From: Methanothrix sp.
Lineage (GTDB): Archaea > Halobacteriota > Methanosarcinia > Methanotrichales > Methanotrichaceae
Direction of reading: 5' to 3'
Length of the DNA stretch: 34,400 nucleotides
Assembly (NCBI GenBank): GCA_003857025.1
Contig: RPOO01000003.1
Span: 1 to 34,400, forward strand
The notes below the pieces were generated by a model. The model was not told where the DNA came from, searched no databases, and saw only the letters and a list, made by a program, of their open reading frames with translations. Shown here one piece after another: positions 391-6,127 of this stretch. The stretch's first letter is position 1, and the number at the start of each line of letters is the position of its first letter. The translations under genes and the position numbers were made by a program.

Positions 391-724
391 TCATACCACC
401 GACCCAAACCCATGCAGATCATACGCCTCCTTCACCAGCGCCGGGGCCACAGAAGCATAGATCTCCGTCGTGGACAGCCTCTTGCGCCCCACCTGGCTAT
501 CTGAATCATGGGCACCGGCACGCCAGTCATGAGCCATTCACCACATGGCTGTGCCTGAGGATATGGGGCGTTACCTTCCTCCGAGAGAGCTTCTGCCTGC
601 GCGAGATCTCCTGAATCCCGGCCTCTTCCGCCAGCCGGTCTATGGTCCGAAGGAGCGTCTTGGTGCTCAGGTGGCCGGAGCTGCGGCCAGGGAAGAGCCA
701 CTCCTGGCCAGACTCCCGAGTCAT
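391..724 (-). pseudogene. Tyrosine recombinase/integrase C-terminal remnant, frameshifted
   Basis: Minus-strand frame gives ...GQEWLFPGRSSGHLSTKTLLRTIDRLAEEAG...VTPHILRHSHVVNGS (HxLRH motif). The continuation lies in other frames: LMTGVPVPMIQ, then QVGRKRLSTTEIYASVAPALVKEAYDLHGFGSVV-stop (catalytic Tyr motif TTEIYA). Confidence 0.8.
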
Positions 725-967
725 GACTCCGGACTCAGGGAACTATGACACCTTGCATACGAGGCACCAGAGTCGGCCGGATTCGAGCGTAGGCCACACA
801 TCGAGGTGATGTGCTTGAGCGCTGGATCAGGCCCGCAACTTAGGTGATTAGTCCCTGTGCAAAGGGCGCTGTCGATCGACGCGCCCACCGCAGACTCGAT
901 TTATGGTTTTTTCTGATCGTTTCTTTGTTGATACGATGATCTTTGTTGGAAGCGAAGCAGATAACAT

Positions 968-2560
968 TTAGACTTGCTGTGATCCGATTTCACTCATAAA
1001 CTGACCTAACTTCCCATAAAGTTGCCAGCTTTCCCAGTAGGGATCTCCTAATTCATTGCATATAATTGGATAAGTCATGACCATCACTGTGCCGAAAACT
1101 GTATAAGTGCAGTCAATTGTAACTATACAGAATCCAGATTCTTCAAGTCCCAGTGTATCAATCACGCTAAGAGTTCCCTGTTGCTCGACTTCCTGAATGC
1201 CTTTCGAGGCCATATATCTGGAGGCTTCTGCCTTATTCGTGCAAAATTTAGCCCCAGTTATTTCGTAACTAAAACCAAAATCTTTTGCAGCACTTTGTCC
1301 TGAATGCCCGTCATATGATGTAAAAGAAGAGCCGTATGAGTCTATGCTTTTTTTGGTTTTATCTAATACATTATCGATATTTTTTTGGGCTTTCTGCTCG
1401 ATGTCGCTTCTGTCAGCGTTTTGATCCAATTCTGTAGAAACCGCCAACAAGGTTGTTGTGCGTACGCTTTCCTCCGTAGATCTTGTTTTTCTCTCGATAA
1501 TATCGGCGTCAAATGACTTCAGCCCGCTCATAACATTTGAGCCAATATATATAGCAAAATGCAAATGAGTTGCGATCGATGAAGGAGATTTATCAGATAC
1601 ATCTCCTAAAACATCATCTAATCCGACACGATCGCCTTTTAACACCTGAATATTGGCCATATGAAGATACATACTATACCAGACACTTCCTTGGTAGTTA
1701 TGCTCTAGGAGCACTTCTCCGTAATTACCTCCCGCCTCGATTACAATGCCTGGATAGCAGGGCTTGACTGGCACACCATTCTCATCTGATTTGAGATTTG
1801 CATCCCACGCATAGGTATCATCTGCTCTTCGTATGCCACCATCTTCCATATGACCAATCGGCCCATTTCTGTCAACGTACTGGACAAACCTCCAGACATC
1901 CTCACAATTTTCTACGTTTTGGCATTTAGCACATTGTTCGTCTTCTAAGCATGCTGAATTAAGACAATAAAAATTCCCATCAGAGCACTTTTGTTCGTAA
2001 TTCGAAGGGCGAATGACCCTTATATTGCCATCAACAGGGGAAAAGACCTCAGAAGGATGAATCATAGAACTCATCAATCCCTTTTTTAATAGGCCTACAT
2101 TATACACGGCTGCTTTTCCGCAATTATCCGTTGCCGTATTCCTAAATGTAACGGTTAAGTCTTGACAATCAAAGTAATATGCTGGAAAGCCTACTTCATG
2201 TCGCCGTGATTCAACTTTACCCGTACCTTTATTCTTCCCGGTAAAATAATATATTTTTCTATTATTGATCCAGACTTCAAAACTATCATCGCAATTCCCA
2301 TCTTCGGCTTCAAAGACTAACATATATGGAACATTGAATTCCTGGATATGCATATCTACGGAGCAATCTCCACCTATAATCATATAATGCTTAGATTTAT
2401 CGCCCTCAATAGATGTAAGAGGATCGAATTGTGGCAAATCGCCCCAGCCCCTAATATTATGACTGTTTTCGCTGAGCAAGTCGCCAAGGTCTACGAAATC
2501 AACATAACCTTTCTCGGATAATGCAGGTTTTACCAAGAGCATTAGAAGTATTATAGTCAC
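968..2560 (-). CDS. Secreted M23 (LytM)-like metallopeptidase-domain protein
   Basis: N-terminal hydrophobic signal-like segment; GNYGEVLLEHNYQGSVWYSMYLHMANIQVLKGDRVGLDDVLGDVSDKSPSSIATHLHFAIYIG matches the M23 pattern (YxHL, G..V..G, HLHF). Start may be a few codons upstream (CTG/GTG near a GGAGGG SD). Confidence 0.7.
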   Translation of the reverse strand: MTIILLMLLVKPALSEKGYVDFVDLGDLLSENSHNIRGWGDLPQFDPLTSIEGDKSKHYMIIGGDCSVDMHIQEFNVPYMLVFEAEDGNCDDSFEVWINNRKIYYFTGKNKGTGKVESRRHEVGFPAYYFDCQDLTVTFRNTATDNCGKAAVYNVGLLKKGLMSSMIHPSEVFSPVDGNIRVIRPSNYEQKCSDGNFYCLNSACLEDEQCAKCQNVENCEDVWRFVQYVDRNGPIGHMEDGGIRRADDTYAWDANLKSDENGVPVKPCYPGIVIEAGGNYGEVLLEHNYQGSVWYSMYLHMANIQVLKGDRVGLDDVLGDVSDKSPSSIATHLHFAIYIGSNVMSGLKSFDADIIERKTRSTEESVRTTTLLAVSTELDQNADRSDIEQKAQKNIDNVLDKTKKSIDSYGSSFTSYDGHSGQSAAKDFGFSYEITGAKFCTNKAEASRYMASKGIQEVEQQGTLSVIDTLGLEESGFCIVTIDCTYTVFGTVMVMTYPIICNELGDPYWESWQLYGKLGQFMSEIGSQQV

Positions 2561-2838
2561 TACTAACTGTATTTTCAGGAATTATCCCTCCTCTGTGGAC
2601 ACTTAGCGACTTTCACCACTTACTTGCATTTATGAATTTCTATCATATATATTAATTATAACATTTGCAGCGAATCTGCTGCAGTACACCCACGCCGCAA
2701 AGCAGCGGGCCATTCCAAGCACCGATAACTGAGTCGTGACTCTTGACTCCTGACTCATGCATCATGAGCCTTGCATCCTGAAACCGGACACCAGAGTCAA
2801 GCACAACACTTATAGACATTCATGAAGAGTTTACAGTT

Positions 2839-3582
2839 ATGGAGGTAATAGCGGTAGCCAACCAGAAGGGAGGGTGCGGGAAGACCACGACAACCGTGAA
2901 TCTCGCCGCATATCTCGCCCTGCGGGGTTCTCATGTTCTGCTGATAGATCTCGACCCCCAGGGCTCTTCAACCACACATCTTGGCATTGACAAAGACAAC
3001 CTGCCCAAAAACATGAACGAGGTCATGATGGAGAGAGCGAAGCTGGAAGACATCATCATACCCACGACAGTAAATGGGCTTGAAATCGCACCCACAAATA
3101 ACGACCTCGTTGAGGCCGATGCGGTGCTGACGAGCAAAGTGGGCAGAGAGAAACGCCTTAAGAAGAAGGTCCAGGGGCTGAACGGATACGACTACGTTAT
3201 CATCGACACTCCCCCGGCCCTGGGCAACATGACCCTAAACGCACTTGTGGCAAGTGATAAGGTCATCGTCCCTATCCAAGTGGAGTTCTTCGCTGTGGAA
3301 GGTCTGAAGACGCTCATCAGAATGCTGGATGAGCTTGACGAGCTTGGCTATCAGCCTAAGAGAAGATACCTGCTTACCATGTGCGACAACAGACGTAAGA
3401 TAACCGAAGAGGTGTCCACCAAAATAAGGGGCCTATTGGGAGATGCCGTCTTCAAAGTCGTTATTCCTGAAAACGTTCGGCTCGTCGAAGCTCCGGCCCA
3501 GGGCCAGCCGATATGTCTCTATGATCCATTCTGCTCAGGGGCATTGAGCTACAAGGATCTAGCAGATGAGGTGGCGGCATGA
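2839..3582 (+). CDS. parA: ParA/Soj-type partition ATPase
   Basis: MEVIAVANQKGGCGKTTTTVNLAAYLA (deviant Walker A), LLIDLDPQGSS, YVIIDTPPALG; 247 aa. Confidence 0.92.
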   Translation: MEVIAVANQKGGCGKTTTTVNLAAYLALRGSHVLLIDLDPQGSSTTHLGIDKDNLPKNMNEVMMERAKLEDIIIPTTVNGLEIAPTNNDLVEADAVLTSKVGREKRLKKKVQGLNGYDYVIIDTPPALGNMTLNALVASDKVIVPIQVEFFAVEGLKTLIRMLDELDELGYQPKRRYLLTMCDNRRKITEEVSTKIRGLLGDAVFKVVIPENVRLVEAPAQGQPICLYDPFCSGALSYKDLADEVAA

Positions 3583-4400
3583 GCCCAGGAGATCGCATGT
3601 CGAAAGGGCTTGACTTCATGCTGAAAGGAATAGGGCCTAAAGGCAAGAATCAAGAGGCAGGAGGCGAGGCCCCGGAGTCTGGAGTCACGACTCCGGAGTC
3701 AGGGGAGATCATCCGCGAGACAGGAGTCACGAAGGATGAGTCAGATATGCAAGAGTCGAGTGTCGTGACTCATGAGTCAGGAGTAGGGCGTCAGGAAGCA
3801 GGCATCAAGCGTCAGGATGCAAGCATCGCGAGTCAGGAGTCAGGCGTCGGCCTTCCTGAGTCAAGAGTCATGACTCAGGGGCCATGTGAAAGGAGTCAAG
3901 AAACAGGCATCGAGCTTCAAGACTCACGAATCTTGAGTCAAGAGTCACGAGTCACGACCCCAGAGTCAGGAAACATTACCCCCGAAACGGGAGACGCGAC
4001 ACACGAGTCGGTTGTCGGTCTTCAGGAGTCCGGAGTCGTGACTCGTGAGTCGAGTAACCTGACACAAGACTCGGATGTCCAGCTTCACGAAACCAAACCC
4101 CGGAGTAGAGGAGATAAGAAGAGGTCCAGAAACGGGACTCAGGAGTCGGGAGTCGTGACAGATGAAATAGTAGACCAGGCAGTTGCCCAGGCCCTGAAGT
4201 CGCCCAAGATCTCGCTCTACTCCCCCCTACTGCTCGCAGTCTTGGAGAGCCAGCAATTAATACTCCTAAATCGCAAGGAAATGACACTCCTGCAATACCG
4301 TAAGGCTACCAAAGCACGGGAACTTGTAGAGAACGCTCTTAAGGAATCCTACCCGGACCTATGTGATAAGATTCTGAAACGGATAAATGAAAGAAATTGA
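3579..4400 (+). CDS. Putative ParA partner protein: repetitive (E/D)SGV-rich N-terminal region plus helical C-terminal domain
   Basis: Start overlaps the parA stop (ATGA). N-terminal part is dominated by QESGV/ESGVVTHESG repeats; C-terminal DEIVDQAVAQALKSPKISLYSPLLLAVLESQQLILLNRKEMTLLQYRKATKARELVENALKE. Function inferred from position only. Confidence 0.55.
   Translation: MSPGDRMSKGLDFMLKGIGPKGKNQEAGGEAPESGVTTPESGEIIRETGVTKDESDMQESSVVTHESGVGRQEAGIKRQDASIASQESGVGLPESRVMTQGPCERSQETGIELQDSRILSQESRVTTPESGNITPETGDATHESVVGLQESGVVTRESSNLTQDSDVQLHETKPRSRGDKKRSRNGTQESGVVTDEIVDQAVAQALKSPKISLYSPLLLAVLESQQLILLNRKEMTLLQYRKATKARELVENALKESYPDLCDKILKRINERN
3660..4160 (+). repeat. Dense GAGTC/GACTC repeat array embedded in coding sequence
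   Basis: More than 20 GAGTC pentamers in about 500 bp, including GAGTC-N2-GACTC palindromes at 3682-3693, 3865-3876 and 4033-4044, and a perfect 14-bp palindrome TGACTCATGAGTCA at 3766-3779. Confidence 0.9.
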
Positions 4401-5257: not shown

Positions 5258-5640
5258 TCGTCTTTTTTGTGGACAGTGACCAGGAAGGTGGCATGTACGG
5301 CCCCTATTCCGAGATGCCTCTGGCCGAAACCGCTCTTAAGATCGTGCGCATGACAAACGATGATGCTGCAGAGCTGGTATCCTATGACATGGACCCTTTC
5401 GGCGAGCAGCTCTTATCCGGCCTGCGGCCCTTCAAGATGGAGATCATGCTCCTCGGCGGCAAGGTTCAAAGCGTGGATGTGTCTGCGCTGGCCACCTCTG
5501 GAGACCGAGGGGCTGGTCACGGGCCGGGAGGACTGCCAGGAGCACTTTGTCTGGGCCAGAACCCAAAACGAGGCGAAGATCAGGGCGGCCAGCCTGGCAT
5601 CGAGGGCACCGCGTGCAGACCCCTGCGAGAGGGACTGTGC
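5254..5640 (+). pseudogene. Hypothetical gene of the mobile segment, apparently frameshifted and cut near 5640
   Basis: MIVFFVDSDQEGGMYGPYSEMPLAETALKIVRMTNDDAAELVSYDMDPFGEQLLSGLRPFKMEIMLLGGKVQSVDVSA is protein-like. After about 5500 the protein-like sequence is in another frame (LETEGLVTGREDCQEHFVWARTQNEAKIRAASLA). Confidence 0.45.
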
Positions 5641-5641
5641 A

Positions 5642-6127
5642 TTTTTCCATCTTGTAGGTGTCCAGCCCTATCACGGCGATGTCCGGGAAGCCCTCCAGAG
5701 CGGGGGCGATCTCGCTGACCGGGTCCATGCCGCTAACGGTGCAGAGGACTATGATATTTGGCACAGTCTTTTCTCCTTCTTTGGCAAGCTCTCCGATCAT
5801 CTCGTAATCATACTCGTGCCATTTGCCCACCGATTGCTTATCCTTCACGCCGGGAAGGTAGCCGCTCCTTGAGACGACATCATCTCCCACGACGATTATC
5901 TTGTCCTGCGCTCCGAGCAAATAGAGGGTTTTCGCAGCGCCGGCATCGAGCGGAATGATCTTTTCCACAGGCATCTTGATAGTGACCTCTCTGCCTGCAT
6001 CATCCACAATGGTCCTGGGATAACTGGCAGAGTCTGCAGCAATTGCCATGCCGCTGATGGCCGCAAGAATAAAGATGGTAATAAAGAGTCTTCGAACTCC
6101 GTTTTTCTGGAATGATCTCTTATCCAT
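5642..6127 (-). pseudogene. 3'-truncated iron-complex/cobalamin-type ABC substrate-binding protein
   Basis: Signal peptide plus YPRTIVDDAGREVTIKMPVEKIIPLDAGAAKTLYLLGAQDKIIVVGDD...DIAVIGLDTYKMEK. Aligns to the paralogue at 31420-32553 up to ITVIGLNFYEPEK, then the sequence becomes unrelated (5642 boundary approximate). Confidence 0.8.

Follow-up and report, generated by a model that had tools for sequence, protein, structure and literature searches.

The segAB locus of the window, the 34,400-nucleotide stretch of Methanothrix sp. DNA analysed here, is quite probably a SegAB-type partition cassette on an integrated element, in which NNGASTC heptads are the predicted SegB units, the block upstream of segA serves as centromere and operator, and an array within segB enlarges the centromere. 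The coding sequence of segB carries a long array of 7-base sites that its own protein probably binds, and thus one stretch of DNA seems to be both gene and candidate centromere. The 3.16-Mb Methanothrix-group genome was searched whole, and the locus, with segA and segB, lies in a mobile element; the best reading of the host element is an integrated, partly decayed, virus- or plasmid-like one from a Methanothrix-group archaeon. The features are as follows (strand given where assigned).

397–742, −, frameshifted tyrosine-integrase remnant, an element marker (PF00589, E 1.5e-5 for one frame, just under the curated cut-off)
711–736, four heptads that duplicate the upstream array, adjoining the integrase remnant
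737–2730, stretch of about 2 kb with an M23-peptidase gene (968–2560, −; Peptidase_M23, E 1.4e-10), between the two array copies
2731–2756, four contiguous heptads, GAGTCGTGACTCTTGACTCCTGACTC, upstream of segA, with 7/14/21/28-bp periodicity
2794–2798, +, additional heptad core at −45 relative to the segA ATG, kept in the relatives L036 and L037
2839–3582, +, segA/parA, ParA-type Walker ATPase, 247 aa (AAA_31, E 7e-56; phrog_164, ParA-like, E 4e-64)
3579–4400, +, segB homologue, 273 aa, by the SegB match of its C-terminal family profile and the overlapping segA–segB order
3579–3641, +, short N-terminal motif MSPGDRMSKGLDFMLKGIGPK, GLDxLIK-like in relatives, kept with variation across the family
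3642–4157, +, linker-coding region, disordered repeat protein (AF2) whose DNA holds the heptad array (29 GASTC)
3675–3742, in-gene block 1, lattice phase 0 by heptad scoring, including the palindrome 3682–3693
3753–4072, in-gene block 2, phase +1, including the palindromes 3865–3876 and 4033–4044 and TGACTCATGAGTCA at 3766–3779
4136–4154, in-gene block 3, three contiguous heptads just 5′ of the C-terminal domain, kept in L036 and L037
4158–4397, +, C-terminal SegB-type (ribbon-helix-helix, RHH) DNA-binding domain by homology, with an 8-aa insertion peculiar to the subgroup of the window

The integrase remnant matches positions 6112–6417 of L036 at 85%, and in L036 this segment directly adjoins the array and segA. 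The array copy at 711–736 matches the single upstream array of L036 at 96% over 28 bp, and comparison of the window with L036 showed that the M23-bearing stretch is not present at the corresponding place there. Since the integrase is frameshifted, it may be that the copy in the window has ceased to act on a free replicon. An Rfam scan gave no match; a search of phage records found no SegB-type domain, and that of plasmid records found one, on pMETEV01.

The features of a SegAB system were found together at the locus. The product of segA matched ParA/Soj 8ray (E 1e-55) in the PDB and, at E 4e-18, 7dut, titled 'SOJ protein', which we take to be Sulfolobus SegA; the window ParA is closer to bacterial Soj/ParA. 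This Walker ATPase gene lies directly upstream of the partner gene, the two overlapping by 4 bp (3579–3582) at the segA stop and the partner's ATG, an arrangement already described (PMC12284271). The C-terminal domain of the partner matched an 11-member family profile (hhalign probability 97.8, E 1.1e-12), and the family profile of the relatives without the window group matched the Sulfolobus SegB structures 7dv2 (E 2.5e-14) and 7duv (E 5.4e-14); the SegB-type RHH assignment of the window domain is linked through the family profile. At the expected DNA-reading strand the window has LLQYRKAT, as against PRYSMG or PEFSIS in the family, and the AF2 model of this domain alone is weak (pLDDT 66, no strand visible). 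Pfam and NCBIfam scans of the partner protein gave nothing useful, and its sole PHROG match, phrog_30105, lies within the repeat/linker. The N-terminal part is predicted to be unstructured, with pLDDT below 50 over most of residues 40–190 and no regular fold. Its leading motif MSPGDRMSKGLDFMLKGIGPK may be a ParA-contact tail, judging from other RHH partition partners.

Palindromic predicted SegB sites also lie upstream of segA, in the window (2731–2756 and 2794–2798) and in two relatives. The SegB motif obtained by ChIP-seq is TCTAGASTCTAGA, with the core AGASTCT (PMC12284271). The exact 13-mer occurs 5 times in 50 family genomes, 4 of the 5 at SegAB loci: in L038 at −76, −22 and +856 (inside segB), and in L039 at −31. 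The consensus core is exact in L038 and L039; the window keeps GASTC only, with varying flanks. Because the C-terminal profile matches SegB, the gene overlaps the ParA gene and two relatives carry TCTAGASTCTAGA upstream, we conclude from sequence comparison that the partner is a SegB homologue. The sequence-only reading had suggested that the gene may encode the ParA partner; that partner proves to be SegB-like, and the experimentally known SegB site has a GASTC core (PMC12284271).

That reading had also listed five strict GAGTCNNGACTC palindromes. Exactly five were counted in the window, at 718–729 (AT), 2731–2742 (GT), 3682–3693 (AC), 3865–3876 (AT) and 4033–4044 (GT); four of the listed positions stand, and the one given as 2732–2743 was 1 bp off. 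The presence of TGACTCATGAGTCA and of more than 20 GAGTC within 3660–4160 was borne out, the latter by a count of 29 over both strands, most of them on the + strand. Dinucleotide shuffles of the window gave an expectation of 0.04 GAGTCNNGACTC (largest value 1), and all 5 occurrences in the 3.16-Mb genome lie at the segAB locus (a reversed control pattern occurred 4 times), so that the refuting case named in that reading, a motif just as common across the genome, does not hold. The 67 GAGTC of the whole window are no more than shuffles give, so that the feature is one of clustering, not of a window-wide excess.

The underlying unit is the 7-bp NNGASTC heptad, set on a lattice, rather than isolated 12-bp palindromes. 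The partner gene holds 29 exact heptads, blocks of four stand at 2731–2756 and 711–736, and 26 of the 28 successive spacings are multiples of 7. GASTC is matched at at least 4 of 5 bases by 7 of 11 heptads in block 1 (0 of 64 in the other phases) and by 30 of 47 in block 2 (3 of 277). Three heptads in either orientation, GASTCNNGASTCNNGASTC, occur in 5 of the 50 family genomes, all 37 places listed there being at parA-partner loci, and runs of four or five contiguous heptads recur at SegAB loci. The segAB locus has the contiguous 7-bp repeats, direct as well as inverted, that characterize type Ib RHH systems. The δ–ω–parS system of pSM19035 likewise pairs ParA and an RHH partner with contiguous upstream 7-bp repeats in both orientations, in blocks of at least four, and its RHH ParB needs at least four contiguous heptads (PMC9499535). 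It differs in that the ω heptad, WATCACW, is non-palindromic and that parS overlaps promoters, not coding sequence (PMC9499535). No Pfam match indicating ω/ParG homology was obtained among 14 family members.

We propose that the SegB-like protein recognizes NNGASTC heptads as its units, each of which would, by analogy, take one RHH dimer. The segA-upstream block would be both centromere and operator, and the SegB-binding array would have been extended into the disordered linker of segB, giving a larger centromere. Dimers along the array, their flexible tails pointing outward, would make up a partition complex, which would engage and activate SegA-ATP to move or tether the element. Autoregulation by the upstream block, through autorepression, is equally likely as a second role. 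We consider it unlikely that the sites are an operator only, with segAB repressed by SegB bound both at the upstream block and within segB, and the in-gene array acting as a roadblock or in titration, with no role in segregation. The heptads do flank a TATA-like TTATAG at 2811–2816, neighbouring the core at 2794–2798 and possibly a promoter element, and the −45 site is kept. Moreover, upstream copies are general in the family and in-gene copies are not, the Methanobacteriales relatives having heptads upstream only. However, an operator needs fewer than the 29 sites spread over 480 bp, and the operator and centromere roles are not exclusive: the upstream sites of other SegAB and RHH ParAB systems are taken as possibly serving for both at once (PMC5120986, PMC9499535).

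The enlarged-centromere reading was further examined in relatives, whose loci were gathered via a ParA search of genomes and viral contigs. Most of them have, in the linker-coding DNA, the motif that stands upstream of their own parA, even where this has changed to the CTTAA type. Upstream DNA shares 7-mers with its own linker 5.1-fold over uniform, compared with 1.7-fold for other linkers, and 0 of 100,000 permutations was as good. Against synonymous shuffles, the linker scores higher at P ~0.001 in the majority of Methanothrix loci; DNA of parA and of the C-terminal domain scores lower. The sharing is weakly supported in L042, L043, L046, L047 and L149 (P 0.03–0.10), and the in-gene repeat of L042, L148 and L067 is at 15 bp, not 7. 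The repeat is absent elsewhere in the genome, is common to the upstream non-coding DNA and co-varies with it across relatives, which argues against a neutral minisatellite, in which slippage in a tolerant linker would have expanded a heptanucleotide repeat, (GACTCCT)n for example, with no binding function. Such repeats exist: a four-heptad scan of viral contigs for more SegAB elements returned unrelated minisatellites only, and 83 stretches there carry at least four GASTC heptads but have neither ParA nor a SegB-type domain nearby, showing that outside its own genome the array pattern is not diagnostic by itself. They resemble the array in the 7-bp period, in similar words and in sometimes being coding; phrog_30105 also matches the linker, and an 84-bp length difference between relatives suggests some slippage. 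They differ in having one orientation, identical units and no SegAB nearby. Viral-contig runs are one-orientation in 85 of 90 cases with repeated linkers, whereas 10 of 11 runs of four at SegAB loci are of mixed orientation, as against 5 of 90 elsewhere (Fisher P 1.6e-9), and the linker dinucleotides between heptads are 0.97 distinct at SegAB loci and 0.44 in viral-contig runs. The head-to-tail, single-orientation arrangement of a minisatellite does not describe the SegAB loci, and we regard this explanation as very improbable.

The computational analysis showed that the linker-coding array is constrained at the DNA level. The in-gene heptads are found in each of the three reading frames and in either orientation. 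The gene has 29 sites against a mean of 11.5 (maximum 21) in synonymous shuffles that keep the protein and its codons, and 14 adjacent heptad pairs against 1.6 (maximum 8). Identity among relatives is 0.88–0.94 inside sites and 0.57–0.73 outside, and at third codon positions 0.81–0.89 and 0.51–0.67, respectively. Together with the motif sharing, these results support the earlier suggestion that the protein repeat arose as a by-product of selection for DNA sites. The converse, that the ESGV/QDSR repeat is a functional multivalent linker selected as protein and the DNA regularity follows, is hardly credible. Its 21-bp period does equal 7 codons, and repeats are known in large SegB proteins; yet the same heptad read in three frames gives different residues, AF2 predicts no structure for the linker, and relatives' linker proteins differ while their own upstream DNA motif is mostly kept. 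Metallosphaera SegB is also enlarged, with 14-aa tandem repeats between the N-tail and the RHH domain, which differ in being read as a protein β-helix (PMC12284271). The length of that repeat, 14 codons, is 42 bp or 6 heptads. Recognition by a GANTC adenine methylase or restriction system, of whose target GASTC is a subset, was rejected as next to impossible, the centre being nearly always G or C (32 GASTC and 0 GAWTC upstream of segA in seven loci, 132 and 25 in linkers, as against 0.85 and 2.8 per kb outside the locus) and other relatives using CTTAA-type heptads.

To our knowledge, the segregation of archaeal mobile elements is largely unknown. The nature of archaeal centromeres and the variation of SegAB in Euryarchaea have been named as open questions (PMC5120986). 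The system at the locus is small and self-contained and has a predicted site code, and the family changes the code and keeps the architecture, so that SegB specificity, the site number for SegA activation and the incompatibility of related elements can be tested directly. The locus is also an example of DNA-level selection shaping a disordered protein linker; repeats in partition proteins such as Metallosphaera SegB are therefore worth checking as DNA sites. We are inclined to think that Methanothrix-group viruses and plasmids write the centromere into the gene of the centromere-binding protein. Linker amino acids would then be largely dictated by SegB-site selection, and the site code would change jointly in protein, operator and coding array, which would make the SegAB systems orthogonal to one another (GASTC, AGASTCT, CTTAA, GWASTWC and CTGAA types).

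Isolated intragenic SegB sites are already known in Sulfolobales; a dense array that is embedded in coding sequence and varies along with its operator seems not to have been described. PMC12284271 and PMC5120986 describe for Saccharolobus solfataricus and Sulfolobus acidocaldarius SegAB a ParA-type gene overlapped by its downstream partner, a homologous C-terminal DNA-binding domain with a disordered N-terminus, and palindromic sites with a GASTC core just upstream of segA and inside genes, all as in the window. Of the sites described there, 84% are intragenic, and in S. acidocaldarius some lie within segAB. The Sulfolobales sites described there differ in being isolated 13-bp sites spread over the chromosome, whereas those of the window form a contiguous 7-bp lattice confined to the cassette, mostly in the segB linker and on a mobile element. 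The window sites are without the A/T flanks of the Sulfolobus motif.

The sequence-only reading had taken GAGTC-N2-GACTC palindromes around parA and inside its partner gene as a candidate centromere embedded in coding DNA. All five strict GAGTCNNGACTC sites that it claimed were found in the window, one of them starting 1 bp away, and the exact genome count (5 in 3.16 Mb on 379 contigs) consists of these same five; 0.04 were expected in shuffles of the window. GAGTC alone showed no enrichment over the whole window (67 observed, 68 expected), and its signal is one of clustering and spacing. The sites are built from 7-bp heptads, each having GASTC (S = G or C) at its core, and the features concerned are as follows.

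Features of the cassette
2839..3582 (+): segA (parA)
3579..4400 (+): segB homologue, the partner gene
3642..4157 (+): linker-coding DNA, with heptad blocks at 3675..3742, 3753..4072 and 4136..4154
4158..4397 (+): C-terminal domain

The partner gene contains 29 exact GASTC cores, spaced from one to the next by a multiple of 7 in 26 of 28 cases. Within the three blocks of the gene, 40 lattice positions out of 61 agree with the core in at least four of its five bases; in the remaining six phases, 3 positions out of 359 do so.

Heptads inside the gene fall in each of the three reading frames and in either orientation, which is not accounted for by any single peptide. Synonymous shuffles, which hold the protein and codon composition fixed, gave 11.5 GASTC sites (maximum 21) against the 29 observed, and 1.6 adjacent site pairs (maximum 8) against 14; the closely related loci L036 and L037 (L-numbers denote relative loci) likewise exceeded every shuffle. 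Among these three loci, base identity is 88–94% in sites and 57–73% outside, and at third codon positions 81–89% and 51–67%, respectively. Across relatives, moreover, the linker-coding DNA carries the motif seen upstream of the same relative's parA.

Motifs found both upstream of parA and in the linker
GASTC: window group (window, L036, L037)
AGASTCT: L038, L039
CATGASTC: L044
CTTAA: L040, L041
CCTTAAG: L148
CCTTTAG and GGCTTA types: L165

In nine representatives, 7-mer sharing was 5.1-fold over uniform for the own linker and 1.7-fold for other linkers, and none of 100,000 permutations beat the diagonal. Linkers stood above synonymous shuffles at P ~0.001 in the window, L036–L041, L044, L148, and L165, and more weakly (P 0.01–0.05) in L042, L043, L047, and L048; the excess was not significant in L046 (P 0.07) and L149 (P 0.10). 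In every case scored, linker DNA came out higher than the DNA of parA and of the C-terminal domain at that locus. The reading frames and orientations, shuffle excess, site conservation, and motif sharing led us to conclude that the coding array is a DNA-level feature. In the L042, L148, and L067 linkers, TTAAG words recur every 15 bp (5 codons), near-identically in L067, and upstream words of this subgroup lie at 7 or 14 bp instead.

The gene upstream of the partner encodes a ParA-type ATPase, and the partner itself had no useful match in Pfam or NCBIfam. Relatives with an identifiable partner of the window type (ParA identity 94% to 40%) share a layout of short N-terminal motif, variable linker, and C-terminal domain of ~70 residues, the last doubled in tandem in L040, L041, and L046; in L045, the ParA relative is followed by a canonical ParB instead. 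Searched against the PDB, the C-terminal domain profile matched Sulfolobus SegB with an E-value of 7e-14 with the window group included and 2.5e-14 without it, and the window's own domain joined the latter profile (E 1.1e-12). Because of this match and the layout shared alongside a ParA-type ATPase, the cassette is, as judged from sequence, SegAB-like. Against this, the window domain differs from its relatives in the strand presumed to read DNA, and confidence in its structure model is low. Just before the second S of an SxS context, that strand has Met in systems of the GASTC type (L038, L039, L044, L149, and Sulfolobus SegB, 7dv2) and Ile in those of the CTTAA type (L041, L042, L043, L148, L165, and Methanobacteriales), the exceptions being the window group and one of L040's two domains; this is possibly a specificity residue. 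The L041 partner gene has a frame break inside a ~99-bp linker repeat; this copy may have decayed, or the assembly may be wrong there.

By ChIP-seq in Saccharolobus solfataricus, the SegB motif is TCTAGASTCTAGA, with a nearly invariant AGASTCT core (PMC12284271), and earlier work placed SegB sites just upstream of segA, centred at -59 (PMC12284271, PMC5120986). The exact 13-mer TCTAGASTCTAGA occurs five times in 50 Methanotrichaceae genomes, four of them at SegAB loci. L038 has three of these four (-76 and -22 relative to the ATPase start, and +856, which falls within segB), and L039 has one (-31). The window sites share the GASTC core, whereas their flanks are freer. Since the Sulfolobus motif lies at relatives' SegAB loci and its core recurs here, we infer that the window heptads are predicted SegB sites.

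A heptad array alone is no proof of a SegB system, because 83 stretches of viral contigs contain at least four GASTC heptads with neither SegB nor ParA. Of 90 viral-contig runs, 85 keep to one orientation, and the linkers between their heptads are repeated, whereas 10 of 11 runs at SegAB loci are mixed (Fisher P 1.6e-9), these 11 coming from three closely related loci and not being fully independent. For runs of three or more, the mixed fraction was 20/25 over all seven GASTC loci and 5/113 elsewhere. One-orientation heptanucleotide minisatellites, e.g. (GACTCCT)n, are widespread in IMG/VR (L207–L286); some of them are coding, and their surroundings hold no partition genes.

Most Methanobacteriales and related loci (L073–L125) carry AACTTAT/ATAAGTT-type heptads upstream of parA, with 7/14/21-bp periodicity; linker excess was absent in 12 of 13 (P 0.13 or more), the exception being L092 (P 0.011). 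This suggests that the upstream array came first and that it was later extended into coding DNA on elements of the Methanotrichaceae. In seven of these SegAB loci (L073, L090, L100, L102, L110, L092, and L106; Methanobacteriales and one Euryarchaeota MAG, several on large contigs), the AT-rich heptads are confined to the upstream side of parA, at ~200 bp, and they are predicted SegB sites of Methanobrevibacter and Methanosphaera.

In pSM19035, each 7-bp repeat is bound by one RHH dimer, and full ParA activation needs four or more contiguous repeats (PMC9499535). By analogy, a short SegB filament would form on each four-heptad block, and its N-terminal tails would stimulate SegA. Sulfolobus SegB both compacts DNA and forms bridges between sites far apart (PMC12284271), and in this way the blocks in the gene and upstream of parA could come together in a single complex. 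The predicted site at -45 adjoins a TATA-like box, which suggests autorepression of segAB. Sites within genes, even inside segAB, are already known for chromosomal SegB (PMC12284271). The literature searched contained neither Methanothrix together with SegB nor a dense tandem centromere array in a partner-gene linker changing along with the operator. Metallosphaera SegB has 14-aa protein repeats (PMC12284271), equal to 42 bp or six heptads, which may be a place for SegB sites too.

The SegB-type C-terminal domain is present in 10 of 50 family genomes. Among the named relatives are Methanothrix sp. from Lac Pavin (JAPKYA010000045.1), Methanotrichaceae archaeon Ch14, and Methanosaeta sp. PtaU1.Bin112. 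The cassette lies on three IMG/VR viral contigs (L148, L149, and L165), terminase genes occur on the contigs of L037 and L048, and a frameshifted tyrosine-integrase remnant adjoins the array in the window and L036, all of which point to virus- or plasmid-like carriers. The window copy may be a remnant, since its integrase is frameshifted, despite which segA and segB are intact. Its upstream array is doubled (711-736 and 2731-2756, each corresponding to L036's single array), and the copies now flank ~2 kb carrying an M23-peptidase gene.

Beyond the cassette, 5444-6127 (-) and 6708-32595 hold a row of paralogous ABC-transporter-type substrate-binding proteins, several of which contain GNANxDxxID-like repeats similar to the calcium motifs of dockerins, adjoining CobN-like and nitrogenase-like genes (all named by reading the sequence); the first of the row, 5444-6127 (-), seems to be cut short, perhaps where the element ends. 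The Methanohalobium evestigatum plasmid pMETEV01 (L206, 162935-163468) encodes a SegB-type protein, WP_013195750.1, which is preceded by an AAA-type ATPase in the place of ParA, possibly a different motor pairing.
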